A stretch of DNA of 57,013 bases from a virus: IMG/VR virus record IMGVR_UViG_3300021425_000044, positions 1 through 57,013 of that record. One strand, 5' to 3'. The position numbers and the translations under genes were made by a program. Shown here piece by piece: positions 25,209 through 42,254 of this stretch. Position 1 is the first letter of the stretch; each line of letters begins with the position of its first letter. Below the pieces are notes generated by a model. That model ran no database searches. It had not been told where the DNA came from and saw only the letters and a list, made by a program, of their open reading frames with translations.

Positions 25209-25254
25209 GCGGGCTGATGGTTGAGTTGCTGATCGAAGCTGCCCCCTCGGAGGT

Positions 25255-26334
25255 TTACAGGGATCTAAGAAGCTCTAGCCATAGATCAGCACCTCGTCTG
25301 ATATCCCGGCTCTTAACCCTATCGAATACCTCGTCAGACTTCTCCTGACGGTATGACAGATCGGTGTATTTCTTGATCGCTCTGATCCAGTCCTTGGGCT
25401 TGTACGCAATATCGAAAGAGCCACCCCAGGATGTCCTGAGAGCCTCGTAGGAGGGGCTGTAGGAGCTTATAAAGGGTATCCCGCAGGCTGCGTACTCAAG
25501 ACCCTTAATGTCGCTCTTAGCGTGATTGAAGGGGATGTCACGCAAGGGGATGATCCCTAGCTGCATAGACATCAGATTAGGGTAGTACTCTGGTAAGCAC
25601 CAAGATACCTTCTCAACCACATCTTCGGGCAAGCCCACTCTGTGGGCGAACGTCTCTGCCTGGGGATTATGTGGGTTGTCTCCACCATGGTACATCTGGT
25701 AGTCGTCCGTAAACTGACGGAGGATACCTCTCATCAACTCAAGGTCTCCGCTACGGTGAGCAGTAGAACCGACCCAGCCCAGCTTGGGGGCAGTCACGTC
25801 CTGCTCGACTCGTGTAAACCTATCGATATCAACGTAGTTAGGTATGATCTCGGTGGGCAGCGAGAACTTAGAAGCACTCATGTCAGCGATCCAGGGAGTA
25901 GACGCCACAACCATTGACGACGCCAGTATCGACCGGGTGTAGTGGTCAGTGTTCCTAGCTTTGTTGTACTTAGGGTGTGCCCCTTTCCATGCAGCGTTAC
26001 GGTGGTCGAGCGCCCAGTACCAATCATCTATATCCTGGATAACAACCATACCGGAGTTGACGGAGTGCCTACAGTCGTTAGCGATACCGTCGTTCATAAG
26101 ACGCTGAGTGATAAGGATATCGGGGGTGTACAGTCTCTTAGTGATATCGCACTCGACTCCTAAGAACCCCTTATTTGAGTACAGGGTTCCGTATACAACG
26201 TTGTACTCCTCCTTAAAGTAAGGAATATACTGACCAATCCTCGCCCAGCCAGATCCACCCCAACTAGGGGTTTTACCCCCAGGACTGTCTTGGCAGCTTC
26301 TAAAATCTCCACTAGCTATGCCTAAAGTTTTCAT
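25255..26334 (-). CDS. Glycosyltransferase (GT-B, group 1-like)
   Basis: A 359-aa protein with a glycosyltransferase-B pattern: N-terminal Gly-rich loop (GGSGWARIGQYIPYF), then STPWIADMSASKFSLPTEII before NYVD, LGWVGSTAHRSGDLELM, and the donor-site segment AKSDIKGLEYAACGIPFISS. It probably moves a sugar onto phage DNA, virion protein or host envelope; the target is not shown. It overlaps nothing and sits last in the leftward WhiB-led unit. Confidence 0.82.
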   Translation of the reverse strand: MKTLGIASGDFRSCQDSPGGKTPSWGGSGWARIGQYIPYFKEEYNVVYGTLYSNKGFLGVECDITKRLYTPDILITQRLMNDGIANDCRHSVNSGMVVIQDIDDWYWALDHRNAAWKGAHPKYNKARNTDHYTRSILASSMVVASTPWIADMSASKFSLPTEIIPNYVDIDRFTRVEQDVTAPKLGWVGSTAHRSGDLELMRGILRQFTDDYQMYHGGDNPHNPQAETFAHRVGLPEDVVEKVSWCLPEYYPNLMSMQLGIIPLRDIPFNHAKSDIKGLEYAACGIPFISSYSPSYEALRTSWGGSFDIAYKPKDWIRAIKKYTDLSYRQEKSDEVFDRVKSRDIRRGADLWLELLRSL

Positions 26335-26335
26335 A

Positions 26336-26710
26336 CTACGCCTTTGTTATGTGTTTACGGATACTGGAACGGATATCAGGGATATTGAGCCGTCTCTCTG
26401 GCTCTGGTAATAACATATCACCTGGAGGAGGAAGTAGGTTAATCTTCTCTGGATCTAGCCTCTTACTCGGATTGAACGGTATACCCTCTCTACGCTCCTT
26501 CGGGGTGCGGCCTCCCCACATACCGTGCTCTTCATCGGCTCCTAAAGCGTCACACGCCTCTCTCTGTGTGCAGTTACCACAAACCAGACGCCCTATGTCA
26601 TAGTATTTAGACTCGGGGGCGGTTCTCTCCTCGCTGAATATCGGAGGAAAGAACAGATCAACATGAACGTCTTTGCACAGAGCTTTGCTGTCATCCAGTA
26701 GGTCAGCCAT
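26336..26710 (-). CDS. WhiB-family iron-sulfur transcription factor
   Basis: A 124-aa WhiB-like protein with four cluster ligands Cys12, Cys44, Cys47 and Cys53 (VCGNC, REACD), then GMWGGRTPKERR, the signature turn and basic stretch. WhiB proteins bind [4Fe-4S] clusters and sigma factor domain 4, and are essentially restricted to actinobacteria and their phages; phage copies can override host regulation. The C-terminal extension (about 45 residues, Pro-rich) exceeds the usual length. This is the strongest host indicator in the window. Confidence 0.9.
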   Translation of the reverse strand: MADLLDDSKALCKDVHVDLFFPPIFSEERTAPESKYYDIGRLVCGNCTQREACDALGADEEHGMWGGRTPKERREGIPFNPSKRLDPEKINLLPPPGDMLLPEPERRLNIPDIRSSIRKHITKA

Positions 26711-26711
26711 A

Positions 26712-27434
26712 TCAGTCCTCCCTTAGGATAAGCTGTCGAAGGTATGCGATACGGGCAACCTGTCGAGGGTCATTCTCCGCCCTCAATATGTTGTCCAGTA
26801 CGGTCAACTGCTCGATACGTGCATCGTTTGATACCTCATCATCTAGCACGTCGTCTACTACGTCATCCGCTACCAAACGGAGGACCGGGCTACCGGGAGA
26901 CTTAGAAGACTTGTGGTCGTCCTGCACATACTTAATGAAGTCATCATCGTCTAGGTTACGTTTTGCACGGTCACGGAGGTTAAAGGCTGGGTGTGTACTT
27001 TCGTCCCCACCAAACACTTGTTCGATACCAGCAGACCCTTCCTGTATAGCTATGATGATGTCCTCTTTGTCAATACCTGTGATATGGGATATCTTTTCCA
27101 GCAGACCCATAATCTGATGGTCTTCCATATCATCGCTGAAACCCTGTCCGTACGCAGTGATGATGAGCTTGCGGAAGATATCTATCATACCCTCGTCCTC
27201 GGGGATATCGACTTTGGGGTCTCTGTCGTATCCCTCTGACCTATCGATACTGAACATGATATGGTCAGCCCCCAGAGTGGTAAGGTCATCATCTAAGATT
27301 CCCTTGATATTATTCCATTGAATGTTCTGTACGTCTTGCAACCACTCCTCAAATGCATCATCATCATCATCATTGAAGTCGTATGGATCTACATCGAAGT
27401 CCTCTGGCTCTCCGTAGTCCTCATCATCCATCAT
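26712..27434 (-). CDS. Acidic hypothetical protein
   Basis: A 240-aa protein with a very acidic N-terminus (DPYDFNDDDDDAFEEW) and a mixed C-terminal half (DDVVDDVLDDEVSNDARIEQ). The middle (HQIMGLLEKISHITGIDKED) is helix-like. No family recognised; strong GGAG ribosome site. Confidence 0.65.
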   Translation of the reverse strand: MMDDEDYGEPEDFDVDPYDFNDDDDDAFEEWLQDVQNIQWNNIKGILDDDLTTLGADHIMFSIDRSEGYDRDPKVDIPEDEGMIDIFRKLIITAYGQGFSDDMEDHQIMGLLEKISHITGIDKEDIIIAIQEGSAGIEQVFGGDESTHPAFNLRDRAKRNLDDDDFIKYVQDDHKSSKSPGSPVLRLVADDVVDDVLDDEVSNDARIEQLTVLDNILRAENDPRQVARIAYLRQLILRED

Positions 27435-27464
27435 ATTATGCTCCTTATATTTGGTCTGTTTTGG

Positions 27465-28922
27465 TTATGTATCAATGGGGGGGTCATCGAGAAGGTCAGC
27501 CTCGATGATGGCCTGGTCTAGCTCGTTGGCGGTCATAGGGGTGGAAAGCTGATTAGCCTTATCTGCGATATCTGATCCGAATATCTTACTGAGCACGCCC
27601 CCACTACCCTTTGCCTCGACCTCCATACGGAACACATCACGAGTGTCTTGGATGTCCTTAAAGTCCTTCACGAGCCTGAAGAGGCGGTCCATCTCAGCCG
27701 ATAGCTCGGCATCGATACCTTGACCCTCTACGTCCTCTGCGAACTTAGCGAACATAACTCGACTCGCTTGCATCTCCACCATGGCGGTGAGTAGGGACTG
27801 GAGTTGGGACTTGCTCTTAAGCTCCATAGGTAGGTCATACGCACAATCCATATGTTCCTCAAAACGAGGACAACGGGGAGCTAAATAGCAACTATCACAT
27901 TGCCTCACACTCTTGCTACTGAGGGCTACTACGCTCTCTTCATGTGGGCGTAAATCGTAGGTTTCATCACCGTTTGCGCCCTTTTTGGCCTCGGTGGAAA
28001 GTACCTTATCTAGACCAAATACCGGTAGCAATTCCCGGTCACTCTCGTGCCTACTTTCTGGCCCATAGGTAGCAATAGTACTATGGTTAGAAACCGTGTT
28101 ATCGGGTTTCGCAGAATCGGGGGGTATAGTTGCTATGTTGCCCTCTGAGGGGTGTTCAGACCCCTCATCGAGTTCACCTGCCGAGGGGTCATAGGCCGCA
28201 GAACTGGGGGTATCGTAGGTCCTTTTCTCCCACTCCAACCACGACATTACGGCCATCTTAGCCACCTCTTTAACGTCATCTTCCATGACGGCATCGAAGT
28301 CCACCCCAAGACGGGTGATATCATTACGGTGCTTCTGTCGTACCTGCTGCTTCTTAGCTGCAGGGTATCGCCGTAGTCCATGACCATCCCATATCTGGGT
28401 TTCGCCATACCTTACAACACTCTTCCACGACGTTACGATAGCCACATCCCAGTCGACTGACTCTATGATGTCGACCTTACCGGTGATGACAACCATAAAG
28501 GCGTTCCACCTCTGCTTCAATTGCTTGATACGTTTGGTCGTGGATGACGTGATAGCCCTATCGGATATCGCCACCCGCCCGTATCGCTCACAGAGGTGAG
28601 CCAGTCTTTCGATGTCTTCTGGATCGTTCCAGATAGGGATGTACTTATCCCCTAACCACTCACCGTTGTAGTCGGGGCGACCGATAACCGAGGTGATATC
28701 GCCCCCGTGTTGACGGATGAAGCTATCGAAACCGTCGATATCAGAGTCATCATCGCTGGTATATAGGTACACATCCTCGGTACCGAAATACTCCTTGATC
28801 TCCAGCTCCTTACGCTTCGGCACTGCGAAGTGTGTGAGGTTCATAGCTACCGACTGAGCGTTGTTATCCTTGAGAACGTTTCTATAGGTACCCTTCTCGG
28901 CACCTGCGAGGACTACCTTCAT
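27465..28922 (-). CDS. Large conserved hypothetical protein with CxxC cluster
   Basis: A 485-aa protein. Residues 1-240 look like a nucleotide- or sugar-binding Rossmann-like region (MKVVLAGAEKGTY, RLAHLCERYGRVAISDR). The C-terminal third has CDSCYLAPRCPRFEEHMDC, four Cys that could bind iron-sulfur or zinc, and a helical tail. A variable acidic linker separates the parts. I do not recognise the family. Confidence 0.6.
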   Translation of the reverse strand: MKVVLAGAEKGTYRNVLKDNNAQSVAMNLTHFAVPKRKELEIKEYFGTEDVYLYTSDDDSDIDGFDSFIRQHGGDITSVIGRPDYNGEWLGDKYIPIWNDPEDIERLAHLCERYGRVAISDRAITSSTTKRIKQLKQRWNAFMVVITGKVDIIESVDWDVAIVTSWKSVVRYGETQIWDGHGLRRYPAAKKQQVRQKHRNDITRLGVDFDAVMEDDVKEVAKMAVMSWLEWEKRTYDTPSSAAYDPSAGELDEGSEHPSEGNIATIPPDSAKPDNTVSNHSTIATYGPESRHESDRELLPVFGLDKVLSTEAKKGANGDETYDLRPHEESVVALSSKSVRQCDSCYLAPRCPRFEEHMDCAYDLPMELKSKSQLQSLLTAMVEMQASRVMFAKFAEDVEGQGIDAELSAEMDRLFRLVKDFKDIQDTRDVFRMEVEAKGSGGVLSKIFGSDIADKANQLSTPMTANELDQAIIEADLLDDPPIDT

Positions 28923-29401
28923 TCTTTACTCCAGTCTCGCTCTGCTCGTTCTAGCTTCTGTTTCTGTACTTCCTCAACTAACGTTTCCCACGATCTGGGG
29001 GAGGCTGAGAGGTTCTTCCATTCAGGACGAACGGTGTAGGGGTCTGCGAGCAGTAGAGCGGTCATACCCAGCTTCATACAGTGCTCGACTGTGGAGGGGT
29101 CAACGTCAACGTACCAGTTGGTCATTGATGACCCTGCCGATGTAGCCAGTGTAAACACCTTCTCTGCTTTGATCTCGGGGGCGGTGGCGTAGAGTACGTC
29201 ATAGATCGCCGCCTTGACCCCATTGACCTTCATCCAGGTCTCAAGTACAAACGTGTCATCACACTCGTCTATAACCACAGCCAGACGACCGTGTAGAGAC
29301 TCATGCAAGATCCTCCAGAGGGCCATGCCCCCTGTACGTGGGACACGTTGTACGATTTCACTAGCGGGCTGGGCAATAACATCAAAGTTAACGACAATCA
29401 T
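28919..29401 (-). CDS. HAD-like hypothetical protein
   Basis: A 160-aa protein whose C-terminal half, NWYVDVDPSTVEHCMKLGMT then ALLLADPYTVRPEW, resembles the final motif of HAD hydrolases; the usual N-terminal DxD nucleophile is not obvious, though VVIDECDD is present. It could be an inactive or rearranged HAD domain. Coupled by ATGA to the neighbour. Confidence 0.55.
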   Translation of the reverse strand: MIVVNFDVIAQPASEIVQRVPRTGGMALWRILHESLHGRLAVVIDECDDTFVLETWMKVNGVKAAIYDVLYATAPEIKAEKVFTLATSAGSSMTNWYVDVDPSTVEHCMKLGMTALLLADPYTVRPEWKNLSASPRSWETLVEEVQKQKLERAERDWSKE

Positions 29402-29619
29402 TCTGTCTCCTCCACAGGTTCAAGGAAGTGCCACGATACGTAACCGCACCATAGCCATAGTGTGAGCCTTCCTAGATGGTGACGGTTGCCCCAGCGCTTA
29501 AGAACTCGGGTAATTGTGGGAGCCTTCTTCGTGGTAATAGCAAGGACCTCATAGACGCACCCCACTACCAGAACAGCGTTCATAGCTTCCTGGGTACTGA
29601 TGGTGCGTCTCACTTCCAA
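29398..29619 (-). CDS. Small membrane protein
   Basis: A 73-aa protein with two hydrophobic stretches (MNAVLVVGCVYEVLAI and LTLWLWCGYVSWHFL) around a basic central loop. Unknown function, overlapping both neighbours slightly. Confidence 0.6.
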   Translation of the reverse strand: MEVRRTISTQEAMNAVLVVGCVYEVLAITTKKAPTITRVLKRWGNRHHLGRLTLWLWCGYVSWHFLEPVEETE

Positions 29620-30092
29620 GTGACCTTACGGTTACTGTAGTGTTCGACATAGCTATGGTATGGACAGAAATCGCAGACATACGACCACTCCTCTTTGGGG
29701 ATACCGATAGTACGTCCGATCGCTTTCTTCTTATCACGGTAATCCGAGCAGCCGACGCCATAACCAAACCCGTAGGTGGGGCGGTTGTGTAGGTTGTAAC
29801 AACCCATGGCGTCTTCTTTGTAGTTCTCACGCTCGTTGCGGATAAACTCCTCCAGCTTATTATCGTGGACAGCCTGCTTAAGAGCACCCTCATCGATAAG
29901 CGCAAGCTCTGCGTCTGAGATGTTAAATAACTGGGCAGCGTGAACGTCACCAGCCCTGGGGTACTTCATCTTATGAGTATCACAAGCGTCGATCAACTCG
30001 TGATCGTGAAGGGATTGGGGATCGTTTTCTGTCGCATAGTCATTGAGCTTGTCTACAGTTTTGCAGGTGTTGCAGATGAGCAATCGGGCCAT
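29610..30092 (-). CDS. Cys-containing hypothetical protein
   Basis: A 160-aa protein with LLICNTCKTVD at the start and YVCDFCPYHS near the end, two CxxC pairs that may form a split zinc site. Helical middle region. A -10-like TAGAAT lies upstream and AGGAGAAA before the ATG. Confidence 0.65.
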   Translation of the reverse strand: MARLLICNTCKTVDKLNDYATENDPQSLHDHELIDACDTHKMKYPRAGDVHAAQLFNISDAELALIDEGALKQAVHDNKLEEFIRNERENYKEDAMGCYNLHNRPTYGFGYGVGCSDYRDKKKAIGRTIGIPKEEWSYVCDFCPYHSYVEHYSNRKVTWK

Positions 30093-30149
30093 TAGTTTCT
30101 CCTGTTATTGTTACGGATTGTGAACGTATTATGTGTATTCTACCACTTA

Positions 30150-30509
30150 TCAGGTAGTAAATCTATCCATGGGTCCTAGGTACTCGGGGCGGTCGTCGTT
30201 ACCCTTACCACGAGCCTGGAAGGTGGCGAGAGCGGAGGCGTGCCAGAGTACGCTCACGATATGGGGGGTACCCGTTTCCTCATCGATATCCTCACCGTTC
30301 CAGAACTGCCAGAGGTGGCGCTGGAGAGCACCGAACGAGAGGGACCAGTTATATCCTCGCTCCCAGTTACGATCGGCATACTTTTCTGCTCCCCGACCGT
30401 ACGCTTCTGCGAGCATCCATATCGCTTCTTGTGGAATCAGATCAAAGCGAGCTAGTTTTTGTCCTTTCTCTCCTCCGGTGTTGGGATCTACGATGCGTAC
30501 TTCGGACAT
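30150..30509 (-). CDS. DUF5664-type dATP/dGTP diphosphohydrolase-like protein
   Basis: A 119-aa protein matching the MazG-like DUF5664 family: GGEKGQKLARFDLIPQEAIW, YGRGAEKYADRNWERGYNW, ALQRHLWQFWNGEDIDEETG, then H and WHASALATF. Related phage enzymes hydrolyse dATP or dGTP (MazZ and similar). It sits in a nucleotide-metabolism rich phage, but no PurZ-type gene is visible. Its own promoter and terminator bracket it. Confidence 0.82.
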   Translation of the reverse strand: MSEVRIVDPNTGGEKGQKLARFDLIPQEAIWMLAEAYGRGAEKYADRNWERGYNWSLSFGALQRHLWQFWNGEDIDEETGTPHIVSVLWHASALATFQARGKGNDDRPEYLGPMDRFTT

Positions 30510-30535
30510 TTATTACTCCTCCTGCTGAAGGAGCA

Positions 30536-30564
30536 ATTATACCTGAAGGGGAGACTAAAAGCAA
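30536..30564 (-). promoter_or_regulatory. Promoter of the DUF5664 gene
   Basis: TTGCTT, 17 nt, TATAAT on the minus strand, followed by an AGGAGGAG ribosome site. Confidence 0.7.
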
Positions 30565-30582
30565 TACCTGTATAAAGAAAGT

Positions 30583-30632
30583 GGCCCCTTACTGGTGACA
30601 AGAGAGAGAGAAACACACACCAGTAAGGGGCC
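30583..30632 (-). terminator. Intrinsic terminator
   Basis: A perfect 15-bp stem (GGCCCCTTACTGGTG and its complement) with a purine-rich loop; read leftward it is followed by TTTCTTTATA, the expected U-tract. It closes the operon that ends at 30679. Confidence 0.85.
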
Positions 30633-30678
30633 GAAAGTGTTAGGTATGGGTAACCTAACAGACCACGTTTATATATGA

Positions 30679-30897
30679 TTAGCCTTTGATCGTAGTAATA
30701 CGCTTCCCTGCGAGAGCCTTCGCCCGCTGCGAAACAGTGTCGTCATAGAGAACGTCGTGACGGGCGTCTTTTGCGAGGTAAGCGGAGAGGTCATCGTTCG
30801 GGGTGCCACCACGATCAGGGGCGACCTTCTTCACGTAACCATCAGTGATCCCTTCCTGGAGATCAGAGTTCATACTACGAGATTCGTTAACAGCCAT
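30679..30897 (-). CDS. Hypothetical protein
   Basis: A 72-aa protein (MAVNESRSMNSDLQEGITDG...) of unknown function, last gene before the terminator. Confidence 0.55.
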   Translation of the reverse strand: MAVNESRSMNSDLQEGITDGYVKKVAPDRGGTPNDDLSAYLAKDARHDVLYDDTVSQRAKALAGKRITTIKG

Positions 30898-30944
30898 ATC
30901 TATATCCTATCATAATGGTTAAGGGTTTGGGGGCTTACTGCTTA

Positions 30945-31340
30945 TTAACGCTGTTGGGCTTCGGCGTGTCGGGCACGGGTTCCGTACACTCTTGCGTCTG
31001 TAATATCCTGTGCGTCTTTAGCGTTGTTCTTTGAGCTTGGACGTTCTGGCGGCTCGGGGAAGGTCCTACCGTTGTCAGAATCGTCCCCAGAGTCTTTAAC
31101 ACGTGCTGGAGGCTCCAACATACTTGTCACCTGCTCTTTAGCATCTTCCCCGACCTCCTTAGGGTTCTTGGAGGTGTTGTCTAACTCGCTCCAGTAGTTA
31201 GCACCTGCACCACCCGGCTTACCGGAAATGGGGTCAGGTCGATTAGGGCGCTGACGGTACTGGGGCTGACGCAGCCCTGCGCCGTAAGTGAATCCTTGCA
31301 GCTTATTCGCCTGTGGGTTGTAGTTAGGGTTGTTAGACAT
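30945..31340 (-). CDS. Low-complexity hypothetical protein
   Basis: A 131-aa Asn/Gln/Pro/Arg-rich protein (SNNPNYNPQANKLQGF, QPQYRQRPNRPDPISG), no known fold. Resembles other polar proteins in this cassette. Confidence 0.55.
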   Translation of the reverse strand: MSNNPNYNPQANKLQGFTYGAGLRQPQYRQRPNRPDPISGKPGGAGANYWSELDNTSKNPKEVGEDAKEQVTSMLEPPARVKDSGDDSDNGRTFPEPPERPSSKNNAKDAQDITDARVYGTRARHAEAQQR

Positions 31341-31342
31341 TG

Positions 31343-31885
31343 TTATTTCCTATCTTCTCTAAGTTTGTTGAGTGCTCCAAGATTGGCACCCGACTGCTTT
31401 TGACCAGCCTTAGGGCCAGCCTTAGGGGCCACCACGCTCTTCGCACCCTGTTTAGCCTCATTGACTTGATTCTTCCAGGCTTCAATACCTTGCCTTGCCC
31501 GGTCAGGGTCGTCTCCTTCTTCCACTGTAGATGACACTTTGCCGAAAGATGGCACTTTGCCGAGAGATGGCACTTTGCCGAAGGCGTCTGTAGGTGTCTC
31601 GTCTGTAGGTTCATCGTCTGAAGCTGTTACGTGTCCATACAGAAGAGCGTTGGTGAGAGTTTCGGTGCTGGGTAGAGATCTAGCTAACCTATTACCAAGG
31701 CCGGGTGCTTCTGGTTTCCACTGCTTACCGGACCAGTCCGCTACACCACCAGACGTGGTGTTAACGACATGAGAGGGCCTACCCGGTCCCGCATCTTCCC
31801 AGGTACGTTGCCATACACCAGTGTTGGGGTTACCACTTCCTGAGAGGGGCTGACCTGCTCGGTACGGGTTAAACTTACCATCCAT
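31343..31885 (-). CDS. Low-complexity hypothetical protein
   Basis: A protein of about 180 aa starting MDGKFNPYRAGQPLSGSG, with a repeated GKVPSLGKVPSFGKVSS segment and a Lys/Gly/Ala-rich end. The ATG at 31885 after AAGGAG is used. No function recognised. Confidence 0.6.
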   Translation of the reverse strand: MDGKFNPYRAGQPLSGSGNPNTGVWQRTWEDAGPGRPSHVVNTTSGGVADWSGKQWKPEAPGLGNRLARSLPSTETLTNALLYGHVTASDDEPTDETPTDAFGKVPSLGKVPSFGKVSSTVEEGDDPDRARQGIEAWKNQVNEAKQGAKSVVAPKAGPKAGQKQSGANLGALNKLREDRK

Positions 31886-32220
31886 TAGTAAACTCCTTCG
31901 CTCATTGCGTTGCGGGCAGATCCGCCCCATTTGGTATCAGAGTAATCCGATATGATACTCGGCTGTACGACGACCCCACTCACCCATGAACGGTTAGAGG
32001 GTGCAAGACGGTCTGCACTCAGTACGTCGTGGATGCCTGCCTGAGAGGTTGTGAACCCACGTCGCTCGGCGTGAAGGACAACAGGAGCTACGGGGCGAAT
32101 CTGTCTGATAGCCTCGGCGGGGGCGTATGCAATCTGCAACGACTCATCAACCAGGAACTCTTCCCTGCTCTGAAAGGGTGCTTTAGACTGTTGTCGGGGG
32201 GCTTGGTCACGTAGATTCAT
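31885..32220 (-). CDS. Hypothetical protein
   Basis: A 111-aa protein (MNLRDQAPRQQSKAPFQ...) ending YSDTKWGGSARNAMSEGVY. TAATG overlaps join it to both neighbours. No family recognised. Confidence 0.55.
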   Translation of the reverse strand: MNLRDQAPRQQSKAPFQSREEFLVDESLQIAYAPAEAIRQIRPVAPVVLHAERRGFTTSQAGIHDVLSADRLAPSNRSWVSGVVVQPSIISDYSDTKWGGSARNAMSEGVY

Positions 32221-32705
32221 TACTTCCAACTCGGCGCTAGGTTCTGGAGTGCAGTACGACGCTGCGGATCGATATGGCCCATATCTTCTACACGAGGCAG
32301 GCCACTCGGGATACCACGGGGGCCGACTTTACCATCATTAGTAAGTCGAACAGGCTCAGCACCTGGGGGTGCCCACTTGGCCCCTGACACCTGACGTTCT
32401 AACCCTGTCATAAGGTTAAACTCATCAGGCCATAGGTAATCACCTTGGTTGATACGCTCACCCTTGTGAACTCCTCGGCTGTATGTACGCTTGTTTTGGC
32501 GCATGACACCATCGAGGAGCTTGTCCTGGCGACGTGTCGTGGAGCCGTGGATACCGATATAACCATCTGGGTACTGGGCATCAGGTGTTGCCCCGAAAGC
32601 TGCCAAGCGCCGGTCTTTAGCGTCACGGAAGCTAGGAGTGGGGCCGATAGCACCGTCATTGGGGAGTTCTTCCCCACCCTGCCACTGTGAAAAGGATGTA
32701 CTCAT
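32220..32705 (-). CDS. Hypothetical protein
   Basis: A 161-aa protein with GYIGIHGSTTRRQDKLLDG and a Pro/Arg-rich end. Part of the coupled low-complexity cassette. No known domain. Confidence 0.55.
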   Translation of the reverse strand: MSTSFSQWQGGEELPNDGAIGPTPSFRDAKDRRLAAFGATPDAQYPDGYIGIHGSTTRRQDKLLDGVMRQNKRTYSRGVHKGERINQGDYLWPDEFNLMTGLERQVSGAKWAPPGAEPVRLTNDGKVGPRGIPSGLPRVEDMGHIDPQRRTALQNLAPSWK

Positions 32706-32905
32706 ACCCTTTGACCCCCATTAGAGAATCCCGCAGCCATGGCGAAGGCTTGGAAACTACTTCCACGCCCTCCTCCTAGGTGGGATACGGGGCGTGGTCC
32801 ATCTTGTTCGTCCTCGATTACCGGTTGACTGGTAGCTTGTCGATCAGCCATACTTCGCATACCTTGAAGTGTTTTACGGGCACGGTCGGCCTCGGGAGAG
32901 AACAT
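32702..32905 (-). CDS. Small hypothetical protein
   Basis: A 67-aa Arg/Gln/Gly-rich protein (FSPEADRARKTLQGMRSMADR). The ATG lies exactly 6 nt after TATACT, so it begins a leaderless transcript for the cassette. Confidence 0.55.
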   Translation of the reverse strand: MFSPEADRARKTLQGMRSMADRQATSQPVIEDEQDGPRPVSHLGGGRGSSFQAFAMAAGFSNGGQRV

Positions 32906-32911
32906 GCAGTA

Positions 32912-32917
32912 AGTATA
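32912..32917 (-). promoter_or_regulatory. -10 box, leaderless layout
   Basis: TATACT on the minus strand with six bases before the ATG at 32905. It lies between this gene and the SpoVS stop codon. Confidence 0.55.
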
Positions 32918-33208
32918 TCAGATACTGTAGTCAGGAGTCCATGTAATCGCTGAAATTGGCTTACCAGAATCACCTTCGATATCATCAAATCCAATGATAT
33001 AACTAAGGTCGATACCTCTAGGGGCCACGAAACCACGAGCGATAGCGCAAGCCTTGGTAGCCTGGTTGACGGCAGCCGCTCCGATTGCTCGGATCTTCGG
33101 CTTGCCCCCTCCTACTACTGCTCGTGCAATAACTGATGCAATAGCGCCAGCATTACTGTCGCCCCGCACTCGGATAACGTCGTCTACATTCGTATTCTTT
33201 TTAGTCAT
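32918..33208 (-). CDS. spoVS: SpoVS-like protein
   Basis: A 96-aa protein with the SpoVS core: VRGDSNAGAIASVIARAV, then KIRAIGAAAVNQATKACAIA and RGFVAPRGIDLSYI. SpoVS proteins (Alba-like fold) act in sporulation or cell-cycle control in Firmicutes and Thermus-like bacteria and bind nucleic acid. Finding one in an actinophage suggests a borrowed regulatory or nucleic-acid-binding role, not sporulation. A TATACT box lies in the gap upstream. Confidence 0.85.
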   Translation of the reverse strand: MTKKNTNVDDVIRVRGDSNAGAIASVIARAVVGGGKPKIRAIGAAAVNQATKACAIARGFVAPRGIDLSYIIGFDDIEGDSGKPISAITWTPDYSI

Positions 33209-33258
33209 TTCTAATCCTTCTGATATGCGAGTTGTGTACTTGGTCTAAGTATACCAGA

Positions 33259-33630
33259 CTACTTGTCCAGGAGTCCGTTTTCACGCATAACCAGGATCAT
33301 ACTGTTTAGAACCTCGACTGGCATGATTGCGACCCAATCTTCCCCGACGTTACGGGAGCCCGCCTTCTTTGCGACAACAGCACCGTAGTCGTGGCCGTTG
33401 TTTGCCATCTCTTCTCTCAGTTCCTTGATATGGCTATGGACGTTAGAGATAGCTCCCTGCCCGCCTTTGACCTCGACTGTGAAGTTAGTACCGTCCTGGA
33501 GACGTACGTCCCCTCGGTCATTGATACCAGACAGGGTGAGACGGTCTGCATGGGGCCACCCGTTGGCCCGTAGGTAGTCTCGTACACGGTTCTCTGCGTC
33601 GGTACCAGTCTGTTTAGGCTTGTTGGTCAT
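33259..33630 (-). CDS. PD-(D/E)XK nuclease, Holliday-junction resolvase-like
   Basis: A 123-aa protein with AENRVRDYLRANGW (first Glu), NDRGDVRLQDG (Asp) and FTVEVKGGQG (E-x-K), the compact PD-(D/E)XK core of archaeal-type resolvases and small nucleases. It would cut branched DNA during replication or packaging. ATGA overlap with thyX. Confidence 0.7.
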   Translation of the reverse strand: MTNKPKQTGTDAENRVRDYLRANGWPHADRLTLSGINDRGDVRLQDGTNFTVEVKGGQGAISNVHSHIKELREEMANNGHDYGAVVAKKAGSRNVGEDWVAIMPVEVLNSMILVMRENGLLDK

Positions 33631-34337
33631 GGGGCCACCCTATTACGACTCACGTAAGACGAATACGTTAGGGGGAAGTCTTCTGAGAAGTAGCTCTCCA
33701 TCATGTTGGCTACCTGCTCAATCTCGTACTGAGGATACGAGGGGTAGGCGGCGGTGTCGTCGTGGACCCTCAGGCTTAAGAAGTTCATTAGGGAGCGGGC
33801 GTTGCAGGTGACATACGCTGAGGACATGATGTTCAGGGGGAGCACCATACGAGCTACCTCCCGAGCCACCCCCTCCGAAAGGAGGTCCCTGTAATGCCCA
33901 TACGAGTGAGCACTCGCAATCTCCATGATGGCTTTCATCTCCTCGCTAACGTGATCGCCATCCTCAGCGTGAGTGATATCGTAGTGACCAGGCTTACCCT
34001 CCTGATACCTAGCTCGGGAAGGGATGTAGAACTCGGGCTTGAGTTCCCGGTACCGGGCTGACTCCTCGTTGTAGGAGAACCCTACCCGATGTCGCATGAA
34101 CTCACGCCACACAAAGATCGGTGCCTTTATACGAAAGGTCATAGAGGTATGCTCAAAGGGGGAGCCGTGACGATTACGCATGAGGAAGTCAATAAAAGAA
34201 GACATTGACTCAGGATCTATCTCACCAATAAGGTCACCTCTAACAGACACTTTGGCAGCATTAACGATGGACTCGTCGTCTCCCATAGAGTTAAATAGAG
34301 ATACTTCGGGAGAGGTAACAAAGCTAACAGCTTCCAT
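33627..34337 (-). CDS. thyX: Flavin-dependent thymidylate synthase
   Basis: Makes dTMP from dUMP with FAD, NADPH and methylene-tetrahydrofolate. The 236-aa protein has the ThyX signature RHRVGFSYNEESARY (Arg82-His83-Arg84, Ser88) and the adjoining SFIDFLMRNRHGSPFEH region. With NrdJ it makes phage dNTP supply independent of host thymidylate synthase. Confidence 0.93.
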   Translation of the reverse strand: MEAVSFVTSPEVSLFNSMGDDESIVNAAKVSVRGDLIGEIDPESMSSFIDFLMRNRHGSPFEHTSMTFRIKAPIFVWREFMRHRVGFSYNEESARYRELKPEFYIPSRARYQEGKPGHYDITHAEDGDHVSEEMKAIMEIASAHSYGHYRDLLSEGVAREVARMVLPLNIMSSAYVTCNARSLMNFLSLRVHDDTAAYPSYPQYEIEQVANMMESYFSEDFPLTYSSYVSRNRVAP

Positions 34338-34365
34338 TTCACAGTTCCTTATCTAGGGATTAACC

Positions 34366-34635
34366 TTACCTAGTAGACATTATATAGGTTAAATAGAGGA
34401 ATCCCTCCATCATTACGATTAAATCATGGAGTTCCTGGGAAGATAGATCCTTCCAGGAACCAGAGAACTCCTCGGGCACTCCTGGTAACCACCGAGCTAG
34501 TTGGTATCGCTCTTCCCTCGATAGCTTGAGATCGTCCTTTAGTGCCATGGCCTTTTTAAAGCGCCTCTGCCAAGTAGCGTCGTACGCCTTCTGTTCTTCT
34601 TCCTGGGTTAGCTCTCTCTTTATAACTTTACGCAT
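34366..34635 (-). CDS. Small hypothetical protein
   Basis: An 89-aa basic-to-mixed helical protein (MRKVIKRELTQEEEQK, KLSREERYQLARW). The ATG at 34635 after GGAGGGG is used; it overlaps the Cas4-like gene end. Unknown function. Confidence 0.6.
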   Translation of the reverse strand: MRKVIKRELTQEEEQKAYDATWQRRFKKAMALKDDLKLSREERYQLARWLPGVPEEFSGSWKDLSSQELHDLIVMMEGFLYLTYIMSTR

Positions 34636-35533
34636 TGTCTGCCCCTCCATTCCAGCAGTAATCTTTGTATGTACAGAACCGGCATTGTTTAGACTTCATA
34701 AAACCTTCGGGTATAGGGGGTGCAACCTTATCCTCAATCGAGTCGAGGACGGCTGTAGCCCCGTCAAGCATCGGCTGAACAACGTCTTTATCTAGGGTAA
34801 CGTGGAACTCTTTAACGTCCTGGCTCGCCTTGAACTCATAGATAACGATACCCTTTTCCAAACCTAAGCAGTACATATACAAGTAGAGTTGGCGTAAGTG
34901 GGGCGCAAACGGACGCTTGATAGCTTTCCATAAATCATCCAACTTCATCTCACCACTCTCATAGCCTGCGTACAAACCAGGAGCATCCCACCTAATAGTA
35001 CCGAGGCCGATGGACTTAATCTCTACCAGGGCATCGCCCTGGTCGTCTTTAATCCAACCATCGGTGTTACCAATGATGTGATGTTTGCGGTTGTAGATAC
35101 TGACCTCAAGGTACTTGAACTTGTCCTCAGCACGGCACTCGGGACAGGTCGTCGGTGATTGAGCCGTGAACTTATGCCCACAGGACTCACACTTCCAGTC
35201 TCCCCATAGAATCCCTGCACGACGCATCCACTCTTGCCACTTGTCATGGATATCGTGCCCCGTACGAAAGATGTTCATACGCTTGAGGCTCACAGATGAA
35301 GGGTTAGACTCAGGAGCTTCTGTGATCTTGAAGTAAGTACTTCGGGGGCACCAGTCGGTCTTAGCGAGATCGCTGGGGTGTAGGTGTGCCGTATCACGAC
35401 TGGCGTTACGGTCCTCCATCTCATCCAGCATAACGTTCTCAACGACAGGTATAATCCTCTGGTTACCTTTGGATGAGAATCGCTTTTTGTAGCTCTCTAC
35501 CTTGTGCCAGTTCTTTAGGGGATCGTTACTCAT
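34628..35533 (-). CDS. Cas4-type PD-(D/E)XK exonuclease
   Basis: A 301-aa protein with the Cas4/RecB-like fold: Cys62 (DWCPRSTYF), Cys284-Cys287-Cys293 (CRFCTYKDYC) for a [4Fe-4S] cluster, and NTDGWI plus LVEIKS for the D-(E)XK active site. An extra zinc ribbon (CESCGHKF...CPECRAE) is inserted near residues 115-135. Phage Cas4-like enzymes act in recombination; no CRISPR genes are present here. Confidence 0.85.
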   Translation of the reverse strand: MSNDPLKNWHKVESYKKRFSSKGNQRIIPVVENVMLDEMEDRNASRDTAHLHPSDLAKTDWCPRSTYFKITEAPESNPSSVSLKRMNIFRTGHDIHDKWQEWMRRAGILWGDWKCESCGHKFTAQSPTTCPECRAEDKFKYLEVSIYNRKHHIIGNTDGWIKDDQGDALVEIKSIGLGTIRWDAPGLYAGYESGEMKLDDLWKAIKRPFAPHLRQLYLYMYCLGLEKGIVIYEFKASQDVKEFHVTLDKDVVQPMLDGATAVLDSIEDKVAPPIPEGFMKSKQCRFCTYKDYCWNGGADNA

Positions 35534-35856
35534 TCTGTCTCCTCCGTACCTATCAGGTCTAGAAAGTCGTCCTCTGGCATTGTCACGTAGCTATGGGAGC
35601 CGAACTCAAAAACGTAGAGAGGAAGGCGACCTTCCTTGTAAGCCCTTTTGGAGAGGTCCCTGAGATCCGAATGACGTATAGTACAGGTCTTAGCGTCGTC
35701 TTTCATCTTAGTCTTGGCCTCCACCATGTACTCATCAGTACGAACGTCGGCTTTGCGGACCCACCCTGCGCCTGACATGGCATTCACGGAGCCTCCCAGG
35801 GTCTTTGCAAGACGCTTCTCCTGCTTCTGGCTCTTTATCTGCTCAGGACTTGGCAT
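35530..35856 (-). CDS. PD-(D/E)XK resolvase-like nuclease
   Basis: A 108-aa protein: KQEKRLAKTLGG then SGAGWVRKADVRTDEYMVE, leading to AKTKMK, matching a small nuclease family where GAG..RKxDVR-(D/E)-E-x-K forms the active site. Overlaps both neighbours slightly. A second, unlike resolvase lies at 33.3 kb. Confidence 0.7.
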   Translation of the reverse strand: MPSPEQIKSQKQEKRLAKTLGGSVNAMSGAGWVRKADVRTDEYMVEAKTKMKDDAKTCTIRHSDLRDLSKRAYKEGRLPLYVFEFGSHSYVTMPEDDFLDLIGTEETE

Positions 35857-36487
35857 CGTTGCCCCCTGTACGTACTGCGCTGCGGAGGGTTATCCATAGG
35901 GCGGCGAACTCTTCTTTGGCTTCGTGGGGGGCTAGTTTGCCAACACCATCAACGGTGCGGCGAGCTTTCTCTTCTTGCTCATATACGAACAAGTCAGCAC
36001 GCCGTACTAGATCCCAACGACGAGTCCAAGCGTGACGCAGATTGATGCTCTCTGCGATGTGCCATTCCACAATGGCGACCATCATATCCCTCTCAATATC
36101 CTCGTAATCTACTCCCCCAATCGTAACGAGGTGCTTCCAGGGACGAGGGATGTCCAGGAGGTACGCTTCTGTGGCGTCGTGGATGAGTCCAAGCAACTGA
36201 ACGTCGGGGGGAGCGCCCCAGTCTTTCAATGTCTCAGACACCCGTACCGAGTGCTCTGCCACTGAGTAGAACTTGCTAAGGTGACCAGAAAACCGGCTGA
36301 GGTTAGACAGGGCAGTGGAGATATCAGTCATGTTGAAGATCCATGTATCGGGGTCTGAAACATCAAAGTTTATCCCAGTCTGGGTACGGATGTGGCTACC
36401 TTCCTTGGGGGCGACTACAGGAGGGGGTTGATGTAGATCGAACTGCCGTTGTCCTTGTTCTGTTCGTTCGATGATTGTCTTATCCAT
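35843..36487 (-). CDS. HD-domain hydrolase (YfbR-like)
   Basis: A 214-aa protein with HD-type metal motifs: YSVAEHSVRVSETL (His), LLGLIHDATEAYLLDI (His-Asp), and a downstream Asp in YEDIERDM. The layout fits the YfbR 5'-deoxynucleotidase group that trims dNMPs. The ATG at 36487 follows GAGGAG. Nucleotide-pool control next to recA and nucleases is sensible. Confidence 0.8.
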   Translation of the reverse strand: MDKTIIERTEQGQRQFDLHQPPPVVAPKEGSHIRTQTGINFDVSDPDTWIFNMTDISTALSNLSRFSGHLSKFYSVAEHSVRVSETLKDWGAPPDVQLLGLIHDATEAYLLDIPRPWKHLVTIGGVDYEDIERDMMVAIVEWHIAESINLRHAWTRRWDLVRRADLFVYEQEEKARRTVDGVGKLAPHEAKEEFAALWITLRSAVRTGGNDAKS

Positions 36488-36522
36488 GATGTACTCCTCC
36501 TTTAAGTGGTGAGGACATCTTA

Positions 36523-37623
36523 TCAAGCGGATTGATCAACGTCAACCTCCTCTAAGGACTGCTCTGAGTCCTCTTCTGACAAATCAAAGTTGCGGAAGGT
36601 ATCAACGTTCTTAGACAGGATCTTCATAGCAGCTTCCTTGATACGAGAACAAAGTGCCTCATCCTCAGCTACTGCAACGTATAGGTCGTCTTTGGACTTA
36701 CCGATACGCTCCCCCTCAAACTTGTAACGTCCCTCAAATAGTTCAAGAGCCAGGGCCACAGTAACAACGTCTTTCGCTAGGTCGAACTGACCCAGGCCGA
36801 ACCCTGACTTACTGTCTGCGAAGTAGAAGTCGACCTCTGCTGTCTGCTGGGGGCGATACGTCTTGTTCTTAAAACAACGCATCTTGATGGTCTGGCCGAC
36901 ACGAGACTCGATAGACGAGGCATCCTTGAGCCACTCGTCTCGACGTACCTCGATACGGATGAAGTAAAAGTAGTTCTTAGCCTTACCGCCTGGAGTGGTG
37001 CGGGGGTCGCCAAACATAACGCCAATACTGTCTCGCCATTGGTTAATGGCGATCAGAGTACAATCACGTTCTCCCTCAGAGCGACGTTGTGCAGCAGCGC
37101 ACTTGCGGAAGAACTTACCCAGGAGACGGGCACCTACGGCCATACCTGCCTGGTCCATGGACTTCTCAACCTCATCACTAGGTACGAGGGCCGGGATCGA
37201 GTCGATGACGACCATATCAACTGCATGGTTCTCGACGGACTTGAGCACCAGCTCCAGGGCTGTCTCCATCTCGTTAGTCTCGACCACCCATAACCTATCG
37301 ATATCGATACCAAACGATGCCGCATAGTCAGGGACGTACTCCTCAGCAGCTACCCAGAGGGCGAGGAACTCAGGATCTTCTCGCATGTTATGGGCAATAG
37401 TCTGGTATGCGATAGCCGTCTTGCCCGACGACTCATTACCTACAATCTCGTTCCACTGGTTAGCGGCGAACCCTCCACCCATAGCCAGGTCGTAGTCCAG
37501 AATGCCAGTGCTAAGGTGTGGTACATCCTGCCGAGCCGTACTGCCCCGCATAAGGACTCCAGCCCCCAGCTTCTTGTTCACGTCTGCTGCTAGTTCATCA
37601 ATAGTCTTAAAGTTATCGCTCAT
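36523..37623 (-). CDS. recA: RecA/UvsX-like recombinase
   Basis: A 366-aa strand-exchange ATPase. GNESSGKT (62-69) is Walker A, MVVIDSIPALVPSDEVE the Walker B region, and LIAINQWRDSIGVMFGDP the L2-side segment. Acidic C-terminal tail (EEDSEQSLEEVDVDQ) as in host RecA. It supports recombination-driven replication together with the adjoining nucleases. Confidence 0.92.
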   Translation of the reverse strand: MSDNFKTIDELAADVNKKLGAGVLMRGSTARQDVPHLSTGILDYDLAMGGGFAANQWNEIVGNESSGKTAIAYQTIAHNMREDPEFLALWVAAEEYVPDYAASFGIDIDRLWVVETNEMETALELVLKSVENHAVDMVVIDSIPALVPSDEVEKSMDQAGMAVGARLLGKFFRKCAAAQRRSEGERDCTLIAINQWRDSIGVMFGDPRTTPGGKAKNYFYFIRIEVRRDEWLKDASSIESRVGQTIKMRCFKNKTYRPQQTAEVDFYFADSKSGFGLGQFDLAKDVVTVALALELFEGRYKFEGERIGKSKDDLYVAVAEDEALCSRIKEAAMKILSKNVDTFRNFDLSEEDSEQSLEEVDVDQSA

Positions 37624-37683
37624 ATTGTGCTTCCTTCGTTGTCATTCATATGTTCACACCACCGGACGGTAGCATGTTGAGGG

Positions 37684-38112
37684 TCACGACCAGTTTGCTT
37701 GGTCACCCTGTTGGTAAGCGCCGTTATAACCGCACTCAAAACAGTGAGAGCGGGGGGCGTGACCCGCTACACGGGAGCTACCACCGGAGTAGTTAGTGTA
37801 CCCCGTAAGGCTCCCACACTCGGGACAGCTAAGACCTCCCTCTCTCCTATGGGCTTCCCCACCCTCCCATAGACGGAGAGCTTCACCCATGCTGACCTGC
37901 TCACTATCATGCCTATTGGGGTCAAGTACCTTCTGGCGACCGGGAGCGGCCTGGGGAGATGGGGTTTGTTGAGGAGTAGGTTGGGGCTGCACAGGCTCAG
38001 GTTGGGACCGTACAGGCTCAGGAACGCTCTGAGGCCTCTCTCGTACCGTGATACCAAACTGAGGCTGAGGCTTATCACTTCCTAGCTTCTTGGCCCACCA
38101 ATCATTCGCCAT
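37684..38112 (-). CDS. Pro/Gln-rich linker protein with zinc ribbon
   Basis: A protein of about 142 aa: a Pro/Gln-rich middle (QPTPQQTPSPQAAPGRQ) and a C-terminal zinc ribbon (LSCPECGSLTG, then HCFECGYNG). The ATG at 38112 follows AAGGAAAG. Function unknown, though such ribbon-tailed proteins often accompany phage replication operons. Confidence 0.65.
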   Translation of the reverse strand: MANDWWAKKLGSDKPQPQFGITVRERPQSVPEPVRSQPEPVQPQPTPQQTPSPQAAPGRQKVLDPNRHDSEQVSMGEALRLWEGGEAHRREGGLSCPECGSLTGYTNYSGGSSRVAGHAPRSHCFECGYNGAYQQGDQANWS

Positions 38113-38584
38113 CTTTCTTTCCTTTCTGTGTAATGGTCTGTTCCAGTTTATCAATAATATGACGCTCGTCGCTACTTAGCGCACCGACATCCATGAGGAC
38201 ATCAGGGATATCGGGGTCATCGACCCAATCGACTACGCCAGAATCGATAAGCTCGTACAGTACAGCACCTACGAAAGAGATAAGCTCACTGTGCCGTTCA
38301 TCGAGAGCCTCCCTAGAGAGGCGGTGAGTGGGGTCCATGAGACGTGCCATCCACCACGATAGGTCCATGATATCATCGATACCACCTGACCTCGACAACT
38401 TGAGCCAGTGTTGTACAGAGTCCCGTATTTCGTACGCTACTCCATCGTCGGCGGGGCTTAGGTATCCCATAGCCTCAGCAATCTCTGCACCACGTCCAGC
38501 GGGGTTGAGGTTCATGTAGAACCTACGTTGCCGGATAGCTAGTTCAGCGGATTCACCATCGTACTTATAATTATCTTTGGACAT
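38102..38584 (-). CDS. Hypothetical protein
   Basis: A 160-aa acidic helical protein (YMNLNPAGRGAEIAEAMG, HSELISFVGAVLYELID) without a recognised family. Overlaps the next gene. Confidence 0.6.
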   Translation of the reverse strand: MSKDNYKYDGESAELAIRQRRFYMNLNPAGRGAEIAEAMGYLSPADDGVAYEIRDSVQHWLKLSRSGGIDDIMDLSWWMARLMDPTHRLSREALDERHSELISFVGAVLYELIDSGVVDWVDDPDIPDVLMDVGALSSDERHIIDKLEQTITQKGKKDGE

Positions 38585-38593
38585 AATGTCTCC

Positions 38594-40765
38594 TCATTTG
38601 GCTTCGGCCCAGGATAGGGCATGACCTGCTTCGACTTCCAAAGGAACACCCATGAGAGTGCGCCCGTTACCCATAGCTGTCTCGATACGAGGCTTCCAGT
38701 CGAAAACCTCATCACTCGGTACAGATACTACCACCTCATCGTGGACTTGTACAAGCATACGATGAGTAGGAAAGGGCAGTATACCATCGATATTGACAAT
38801 TGCCTCTTTCATAATCTCAGCAGCAGTACCTTGTACTACAGCGTTGATCGCCTGACGTTCTGCCCTTGAACGCTTACGCCAGGAGTCGGAGTCATTACCT
38901 TCTGTAAGGATGTCTGGAACCCTACGTCGTCGTCCATATAGGGTCTCGACGTACCCCTTAGAGCGAGCAGTGTCCAGTACGTTACGTTTCCAGTCAGTCA
39001 TCCCGGCATACGCCGAGTTGTACTTATCGATGACTTCCTGTGCCTGCTCCTCTGTGAGATGACCCTGCGTAGACTCCACCAACTTCTTTGCAAAGCCTCC
39101 ATATCCCATAAGGAAGTTCGGGGTCTTTCCAAATATCTGTCGCTCCTCTCCTGATACCTCGTCCTTACCCAGGATCAGCTTGGCTGTCTCCTCGTGAAGG
39201 TCGATATCAGGGTTGGCAAAGATACGTAGAAGCTCCTGGTCCTGGCTGAACATACCCATGATACGCATTTCGATCTGCGAGTAGTCAGCCACGATAAGGG
39301 TCTCTCCCTCTCCTGCGGTAAACAGGGAGCGAATCTTCGTATCACGAGGGATGTTCTGTAGGTTCGGCCCGCTAGACGCGAATCGACCTGTGGCCGTGCG
39401 ATGGAAGTGGAACTGGGGATGCAGTCTGCTCTTGTGGAGCATGGGTGTCAGCCCCTCAACGTACGTAGACTTGAGTTTCTTAAGCTCAGAGTAGTCAATG
39501 AGATGCTGGATCACCTCGTGCTTACCCTTGAGCTTACCCAGGGTGTCTCTGTCTGTTGAGGGCTTGCCCCCGGCTGTCAGCTTGACAGGCTTAAGACCTA
39601 GCCCCTTGATATAGTCAGACGGATACCCCTTACCTATACGAGTTTTGTTGAATAGTAGAGTAGCCAGATCGTTGTTGGAGTCAGGGTTGAAACCAGGGAA
39701 CGAGTGGAAGCTAATCTCTCGCAAGCATTTATTGATATCCATATCCAAATCCTTACCCACATTGGTCATCCTGCGGGTATTGACGTGGATGCCGTTCATC
39801 TCCATCTGTGCGACAGGGCGGATACAGTCAATGTCGAGCATGAGAGCCTTATGGAGACCCTCTACTTTGCAAATCTTGTTGTACATCTTGCGGTACAGAA
39901 GCCATGCCCAGCGAACATCTCTATGCACATACGCCGTCGCCTTACTGAACGCCTCTGACGTGATGGTTGCACCGATCTTACCGTCTGCTGCATAGGGGTC
40001 GTGCCCTGCGAAGTTCTCTTTGATGATGCTGCCGAGGTCGTACCTCATCAGGTTCTCATCGAGAATATGCATAAGGATAAGGGTATCGATATACCTACCA
40101 GTAGGAAGTTGACCTCCGTAATACTTGGCGATGCTCTTGCAGTCGAACTTGATGTTCTGGTTAACCTTGACAATGTTCTCGTCAAAGAACAGAGGCTCAA
40201 GAGCTTTGAACACTGTCTCCTGGTCTAGCTGAGTCGGGGGAGGTGTGAATACCGCTGGGATATGGTACTTCGACTTCCGTAATGATTCCTTACCTGAGGA
40301 GAGGATGTCTCTGTAACCAGGGGGCGGGACGGTGCTACCATCTCCCCTGACCTCCTCAACGAGGATCTCACCGTTAGGGTGCCCCATGGGGACTGCCCAT
40401 GACATACCCTCGGTAGCCAGACCGATCCAGAATACGTCGTTACGTAAAGGATCGAGAGCCATGTTACTCGTCCAACGGTCCTCGATAGCCTGACGGCTGC
40501 GGGCGATAACGCTGGGGTGAGTGGACTTGAGGGAGGCTTGCTTCTCCTCCCAATCTTGCTCTACCTGAGCAAGGACCTCGCTGTTCTTGTGGATGTTCCC
40601 ACGAGTCTCAACGTCGAAGGAGAACTCTCCTACGCCTTTTATGTACTCAACAAGTTCTTCTAGTTCCTCGACAGTAGAGACGTAGGGGGCACGGACGAGA
40701 CCACCACTCGCCCGTACCCCCCTTGCCTGCCGTGACCCGTCAAGACTAGGGGTCACGGCCCCCAT
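38594..40765 (-). CDS. polA: DNA polymerase I family (family A) with 3'-5' exonuclease
   Basis: A 723-aa replicative-type family A polymerase lacking the 5' nuclease. Exonuclease motifs: FDVETRG (Asp51, Glu53), IKFDCKSIA, and YVHRD (YxxxD). Polymerase motifs: VADYSQIEMR (Asp494), RQIFGKTPNFLMGYG (motif B with Phe at the 762-equivalent), and VQVHDEVVVS (HDE at 675-677). It shares one base with the SSB-like gene and copies phage DNA with the primase and helicase encoded nearby. Confidence 0.95.
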   Translation of the reverse strand: MGAVTPSLDGSRQARGVRASGGLVRAPYVSTVEELEELVEYIKGVGEFSFDVETRGNIHKNSEVLAQVEQDWEEKQASLKSTHPSVIARSRQAIEDRWTSNMALDPLRNDVFWIGLATEGMSWAVPMGHPNGEILVEEVRGDGSTVPPPGYRDILSSGKESLRKSKYHIPAVFTPPPTQLDQETVFKALEPLFFDENIVKVNQNIKFDCKSIAKYYGGQLPTGRYIDTLILMHILDENLMRYDLGSIIKENFAGHDPYAADGKIGATITSEAFSKATAYVHRDVRWAWLLYRKMYNKICKVEGLHKALMLDIDCIRPVAQMEMNGIHVNTRRMTNVGKDLDMDINKCLREISFHSFPGFNPDSNNDLATLLFNKTRIGKGYPSDYIKGLGLKPVKLTAGGKPSTDRDTLGKLKGKHEVIQHLIDYSELKKLKSTYVEGLTPMLHKSRLHPQFHFHRTATGRFASSGPNLQNIPRDTKIRSLFTAGEGETLIVADYSQIEMRIMGMFSQDQELLRIFANPDIDLHEETAKLILGKDEVSGEERQIFGKTPNFLMGYGGFAKKLVESTQGHLTEEQAQEVIDKYNSAYAGMTDWKRNVLDTARSKGYVETLYGRRRRVPDILTEGNDSDSWRKRSRAERQAINAVVQGTAAEIMKEAIVNIDGILPFPTHRMLVQVHDEVVVSVPSDEVFDWKPRIETAMGNGRTLMGVPLEVEAGHALSWAEAK

Positions 40766-41460: not shown

Positions 41461-41500
41461 CTTGTTACCTTCTTTCTTTGTCATTATCGCTGATATTTGG

Positions 41501-42004: not shown

Positions 42005-42192
42005 AGCTCTGGCCTCGGCACAGGCAAATTGTTGACAAAGAAGTCAGCCTGTTTTACTGCGCCCCGACGTGTACGGGCCGTGAACTCAAAGAAACTGTTA
42101 AGGCAGGGAACTACCGCTACCCATTTCAGAAAGCCGTCGTGCATTACAGTGTAACGGTCTTCTGGTTCGTGTGTCTCGTCGGATGTGTTCAC
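42001..42192 (-). CDS. Small hypothetical protein
   Basis: A 63-aa protein with GTG start after GAGGAG; strand-rich (FLKWVAVVPCLNSFFEF). Coupled to the MerR-like gene, driven by a clear promoter. Confidence 0.6.
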   Translation of the reverse strand: MNTSDETHEPEDRYTVMHDGFLKWVAVVPCLNSFFEFTARTRRGAVKQADFFVNNLPVPRPEL

Positions 42193-42224
42193 TTCGGCTC
42201 CTCAACCTGCTCCAATAGATTCTC

Positions 42225-42253: not shown

Positions 42254-42254
42254 C

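Follow-up and report, generated by a model that had tools for sequence, protein, structure and literature searches.

What a protein of the SpoVS family contributes to a virus is the question raised by one gene in the 57,013-base window analyzed here, a complete IMG/VR virus record. In Bacillus, according to the available part of one report, SpoVS affects sporulation (PMC8510167), and in the accessible parts of the open-access literature searched the family has been assigned no biochemical activity. The gene had been predicted as SpoVS-like from the letters of the DNA, and this assignment is confirmed: the product matches the Pfam profile SpoVS PF04232 (E 1.4e-18, 66.9 bits vs. a cut-off of 24), PHROG 35646 “sporulation protein” (E 4.9e-17) and the Thermus SpoVS entry PDB 2eh1 (E 4.7e-10), and PADLOC and NCBIfam searches of the protein itself gave no match. 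The open reading frame has exactly the bounds listed in Table 1 and starts with ATG, and a GAAGGA stretch lies shortly 5′ of this codon on the reverse complement of the window. The gene is under purifying selection, with dN/dS values of 0.01–0.055 in the five of seven pairs that were unsaturated at synonymous sites (the two saturated pairs were set aside, and the out-of-frame row “L003 709” was excluded from the selection and composition analyses).

The AlphaFold2 model of the protein (single chain, 63 sequences) has a pLDDT of 90.7 and a pTM of 0.79. Its nearest fold in the PDB is Thermus SpoVS (2eh1_B, Z 15.7, 87 residues, rmsd 1.6), and the YunD-SpoVS cross-link model 9a7h reaches Z 15.4. 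Since the Pfam cut-off is exceeded and the SpoVS fold is matched, the protein is a member of the SpoVS family. Alba chains rank directly after the SpoVS chains (Z ~9–11, maximum 10.8), and these matches include the nucleic-acid complexes Alba2-DNA (3u6y, Z 9.2) and Alba protein-RNA (3wbm, Z 10.0), with RNase P and MRP subunits also among the fold matches. The protein is thus predicted to have the Alba fold. The model would share it with the archaeal chromatin proteins Alba (Sso10b), to which it is 13–22% identical in the fold alignments, and a sequence-profile search of the PDB with SpoVS gave no match to Alba. Alba is a dimer. The Alba superfamily includes SpoVS according to the accessible part of a published account (PMC11621453).

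Table 1. The SpoVS gene of the window and the genes discussed with it (coordinates of the window).
Feature	Position	Strand	Basis
SpoVS-family protein (predicted Alba fold), 96 aa	32918..33208	-	Pfam PF04232, AlphaFold2, PDB 2eh1
Resolvase-type nuclease, 123 aa	33259..33630	-	PHROG 244 E 5.7e-19; PDDEXK in clade relatives
ThyX thymidylate synthase	33627..34337	-	PF02511 E 1.6e-48
Cas4-like (PDDEXK) exonuclease, 301 aa (anchor A3)	34628..35533	-	PHROG 2506 exonuclease E 5e-36; Pfam Cas_Cas4 E 3.4e-5
Second Holliday-junction-resolvase-like protein, 108 aa	35530..35856	-	PHROG 2002 E 1.8e-20
RecA/UvsX-like recombinase, 366 aa	36523..37623	-	PF00154 E 5.7e-55
67-aa protein, between SpoVS and 161-aa gene	32702..32905	-	ORF; variable low-complexity slot in relatives
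161-aa protein, clade-conserved (anchor A2)	32220..32705	-	alignment of 10
WhiB-like protein	26486..26689	-	PF02467 38.1 bits, E 6.4e-10; marker of actinobacterial host

In the window, the resolvase-type nuclease gene sits 50 bp upstream of SpoVS. A Pfam search of this nuclease found nothing, while its homologue in the relative L014 matches PDDEXK_15 (PF24608) above the cut-off (E 6.7e-8); the L003 homologue matches the same family below the cut-off (0.0013) and the L025 homologue does not match. Downstream of SpoVS follow the 67-aa, the 161-aa and a 114-aa protein. The proteins of the window that are clearly low-complexity by composition are encoded at 31343–31930 and 30945–31340, and the genes beyond them belong to nucleotide and tRNA-base metabolism and are not virion genes. 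Other phage genes in the window encode a DNA polymerase, a primase, a DnaB-like helicase, a baseplate wedge protein, a ribonucleotide reductase and an endolysin; ARAGORN found no tRNA genes in it.

The virus had been called an actinophage, and this holds. WhiB is encoded in 29 of 30 selected clade records, of which 20, the window included, have the PDDEXK-type nuclease and 10 the RuvC type. None of 12 records from other phages that carry SpoVS encodes it, and among 14 control genomes the WhiB search matched only Corynebacterium glutamicum. All cultured relatives that share the gene block are phages of Streptomyces, and matches of the 161-aa gene among annotated phage records are confined to Streptomyces phages (six records). 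The distribution of WhiB and of the 161-aa gene therefore supports the host assignment well, and the clade is a large one of mostly uncultured viruses of Actinobacteria.

The window protein as query retrieved 26 loci, and a SpoVS profile search 246 confirmed stretches, of which the best 80 were kept. So that the count would not be confined to phages found through SpoVS, three samples were drawn with other block genes as anchors. Sample A2 comprises the best 80 of 584 matches for the 161-aa gene, sample A3 the best 80 of 583 for the Cas4-like exonuclease, and sample A6 the best 80 of 548 for the 161-aa gene in its RuvC-group version. In A2, SpoVS follows the nuclease in 74 of the 74 loci that hold the nuclease; the remaining six lack both genes, and the sequence upstream of the anchor is shorter than 2.7 kb in five of them and 5.1 kb long in L218. 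In A3, SpoVS was found in 67/80 loci and in 54/54 where at least 3 kb follow downstream, and the four loci with a nuclease but no SpoVS are on contigs that end less than 1 kb past the exonuclease match. In A6, it was found in 79/80 loci, and in 78/78 with at least 7 kb upstream. The samples overlap in contigs, so that their counts are not additive, and as each consists of the best 80 matches, distant members are under-sampled. Within these bounds no sampled clade locus with sufficient flank lacks SpoVS, a distribution unlike the sporadic presence expected of a host-derived auxiliary gene. The gene is no oddity of a single phage. Broad presence combined with a known virion function had been named as evidence against the original prediction; broad presence was found, a virion function was not.

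In the block, RecA and the second Holliday-junction-resolvase-like gene are followed by the Cas4-like exonuclease, by ThyX or other genes, and then by the resolvase-type nuclease and SpoVS; low-complexity genes, which vary, lie between SpoVS and the 161-aa gene. RecA lies upstream in 95/95, 64/64 and 43/43 loci having at least 4.5 kb upstream, and ThyX is also part of the block in the Streptomyces phages BRock and Alone3. The nuclease directly precedes SpoVS in 26 of 27 loci (26 relatives and the window), with one ORF intervening in L025. In 50 unique A2-sample sequences the median gap between the two genes is 42 bp, and 49 of them have a gap of 100 bp or less, while the intervals flanking the pair vary (median 816 bp to the Cas4-like gene; median 1368 bp, maximum 6220, to the 161-aa gene). 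Gap counts and the divergence ratios given below refer to unique SpoVS sequences only. SpoVS had been placed between a nuclease gene and a cassette of low-complexity proteins; a nuclease-family gene (PHROG 244) does precede it and low-complexity proteins are nearby, but the constant neighbours are the upstream recombination genes, and the low-complexity cassette varies.

The type of nuclease at this place differs within the clade. In the group of the window it is a PDDEXK protein (PHROG 244), whereas in the Streptomyces phages and in a “RuvC group” the place is occupied by a RuvC-like resolvase (PHROG 159; E 5.9e-33 for BRock and 8.2e-29 to 1e-18 for four more). Among the 79 A6 loci with both genes, 72 have the RuvC type and seven the PDDEXK type. 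On a tree of the Cas4-like protein (every fifth A3 locus plus the A6 loci; 61 of 75 rows after removal of near-copies), the nuclease type, scored at the SpoVS locus, changes at least five times, all five changes being forced by well supported branches, and SpoVS stays. In the RuvC group the nuclease lies within 100 bp of SpoVS in 19 of 43 unique sequences and up to 1.2 kb away in the others. As the whole block is syntenic, the nuclease may lie near SpoVS because both belong to the block and not because the two form a pair.

Firmicutes and Thermus SpoVS (PF04232; PDB 2EH1/2EK0) share the profile, the fold and the AIGAxAVNQAxKAxAIARGF core with the window protein, to which the best 80 of 576 cellular SpoVS proteins are 41–54% identical. 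There was no actinobacterial title among these best 80 of 576 confirmed hits, which come from a general search and not from Actinobacteria as their own set. The SpoVS proteins of the Streptomyces phages BRock, Alone3, LuckySocke, GiJojo and pSt2308 (PHROG 35646) are 46–48% identical to that of the window; these phages share its gene block and its side of the tree, and differ in their RuvC-like nuclease. In a 68-row SpoVS tree, a 100/100 branch separates 42 clade sequences (four from Streptomyces phages) from 13 bacterial and 13 other-phage sequences, which are mixed with each other, with many inner forks unresolved due to the small number of columns. Another sequence set comprised 62 of 72 non-redundant sequences and the window. 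As judged from its sequences, the clade SpoVS is a distinct, strongly conserved subfamily.

Residue counts over 170 unique clade sequences (72 of the PDDEXK group, 94 of the RuvC group and four of Streptomyces phages) reveal near-fixed charge changes relative to bacteria. Position 40 is R in 170/170 clade sequences and Q in 76/77 bacteria, position 38 is K or R in 162/170 and E in 76/77, and position 64 is R or K in 170/170 and S or H in 71/77; the window protein itself has the clade type, K38, R40 and R64. Most of the 22 SpoVS sequences from other phages have the residues of bacteria, with E38 in 21 and Q40 in 20. Further hallmarks of the clade are S25, G73 and S86. The AlphaFold2 model places positions 38 and 40 on the strand 38–41 and position 64 at the end of the helix 44–64.

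The neighbourhood of bacterial SpoVS is marked by RNase Y and that of the clade by the resolvase. RNase Y is found near bacterial SpoVS in 57 of 80 loci and RecA in 36 of 70 with flank, with the gene order recA - RNase Y - spoVS in Clostridium acidisoli; a relative of RNase Y was found in 0/105, 0/74 and 0/57 clade loci. RecA is therefore a neighbour of SpoVS in both bacteria and this phage clade. Bacterial spoVS was often observed downstream of recA and an RNase Y gene (as in L069, 1868–5213). Unrelated phages (L276–L298) have a SpoVS of another kind, which is scattered and close to the bacterial one; 12 records of these phages were tested and lack WhiB, and the L276 locus carries an integrase gene. 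In these other-phage loci, RecA, RNase Y or either nuclease was found in 0 of 23 within the flanking sequence examined. At least two kinds of viral spoVS thus exist, one bacterial-like and scattered, the other a fixed gene of an actinophage clade.

The reading we favor, at a probability of about 0.5, is that SpoVS is an Alba-fold, fixed component of the actinophage recombination/replication block that binds nucleic acid at recombination or replication intermediates. A nucleic-acid-binding accessory of phage recombination/replication is the most likely role. The nucleic-acid-binding role in infection originally proposed would fit the Alba-like fold and the recombination neighbourhood. The constancy of SpoVS in a block of recombination genes makes it probable that the protein helps with the handling of the virus's own DNA and does not steer spore formation. 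The small protein would bind DNA rather than RNA, probably as a dimer like Alba, and might coat or bend intermediates such as branched or single-stranded DNA, which would let the nuclease and RecA process the phage DNA. We infer a possible contact of SpoVS with the resolvase, but the exchange of the nuclease type while SpoVS stays makes a common DNA substrate likelier than one particular protein contact. Several observations count against this reading: the Alba fold binds RNA as well (3wbm; RNase P and MRP subunits), the RuvC-group nuclease adjoins closely in fewer than half of the sequences, and some ancestral charges (K17, R32) are lost in the clade. A further point against it is that SpoVS, compared with the 161-aa gene, shows no faster divergence from one nuclease group to the other (between/within ratio 3.75 vs. 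3.59; 2.07 for the Cas4-like gene), and co-adaptation of SpoVS to the nuclease change was accordingly rejected. A bolder version, in which the subfamily consists of Alba-type proteins that bind junctions or branches and work with whichever resolvase is present, and bacterial SpoVS has a related, overlooked role in recombination or chromosome organization with the sporulation phenotype being secondary, is unlikely.

The affinity of the fold for RNA raises the alternative of a regulator that, as RNA-binding Alba proteins do, attaches to mRNA of the phage or its host and adjusts how it is translated or degraded. The RNA-bound Alba and the RNase P/MRP subunits among the fold matches speak for it, as does RNase Y beside bacterial SpoVS, but the clade loci lack an RNase Y relative and all constant neighbours are DNA enzymes, making this alternative rather unlikely. 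It is quite improbable that SpoVS is a virion or DNA-packaging protein, which, with the low-complexity proteins encoded downstream, would compact the phage DNA in a chromatin-like manner or enter the head. PDB titles describe Alba as a chromatin protein, low-complexity genes lie directly downstream in most relatives and the model of the 161-aa protein is mostly extended, of low confidence (pLDDT 56); the metabolic genes beyond them in the window, however, are not of the virion.

Viral spoVS as such is not new: soil and ocean virome papers report it, in their available parts, and read it as a sporulation gene without an analysis of the gene block, with whiB named beside it in the soil study (PMC6172770, PMC8940887). 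Applied to this clade, their reading would make SpoVS, with WhiB, an auxiliary that steers sporulation or septation of the host, which agrees with the effect of SpoVS in Bacillus and with WhiB in nearly all clade records. Against it stand the presence of SpoVS in all clade loci with enough flank, its place in a recombination block, its distance from cellular SpoVS in the tree, and an integrase in only two of the 30 clade records; Actinobacteria are moreover not among the phyla named for cellular spoVS in the accessible part of the source (PMC8510167). We regard such a function as very doubtful, and the clade SpoVS is not evidently a host-derived sporulation gene. Not every viral spoVS should be taken as evidence for viral control of sporulation. 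The announcement of BRock, a virulent myovirus, does not contain “sporul” in its available text (PMC7453282).

In the parts accessible, the open-access literature (including PMC8940887, PMC6172770, PMC11621453, PMC9765229, PMC10294663, PMC7453282 and PMC8510167) contains no link of SpoVS to a resolvase or to phage recombination, and similarly no statement tying Alba to Holliday junctions, PMC4200833 included. The place of this known family in actinophage recombination blocks is well supported, its biochemical role being putative. The constant association of SpoVS with recombination genes makes this phage clade a simple system in which to find the activity of SpoVS.

Some observations concern the remainder of the locus. 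The 161-aa protein, with 584 relatives confirmed in viral contigs, is one of the clade's best conserved proteins and has no Pfam, NCBIfam or PADLOC match. In most relatives, one very large, low-complexity and disorder-prone protein (622–1792 aa) is encoded between SpoVS and the 161-aa gene (L008, 8352–11540; L010, 8348–13726; L014, 8334–12932; L018, 8334–12356; L021, 1772–4048; L023, 8298–10166). These proteins show little conservation of length or sequence, and the slot in the window holds only 67 aa. A short motif common to the low-complexity proteins had been suspected by eye, but the regular expression tried hit nothing beyond the 67-aa proteins in the window, L001 and L002, and the idea was discarded. 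A queuine tRNA-ribosyltransferase-like gene lies at 27465–28922 (PHROG 887, E 1.4e-39). Within thyX, a stretch of 116 bases (34060–34175) shares 80% identity with the thyX gene of Gordonia phage Crocheter; among phage records this is the sole megablast match of positions 25000–45000 of the window.
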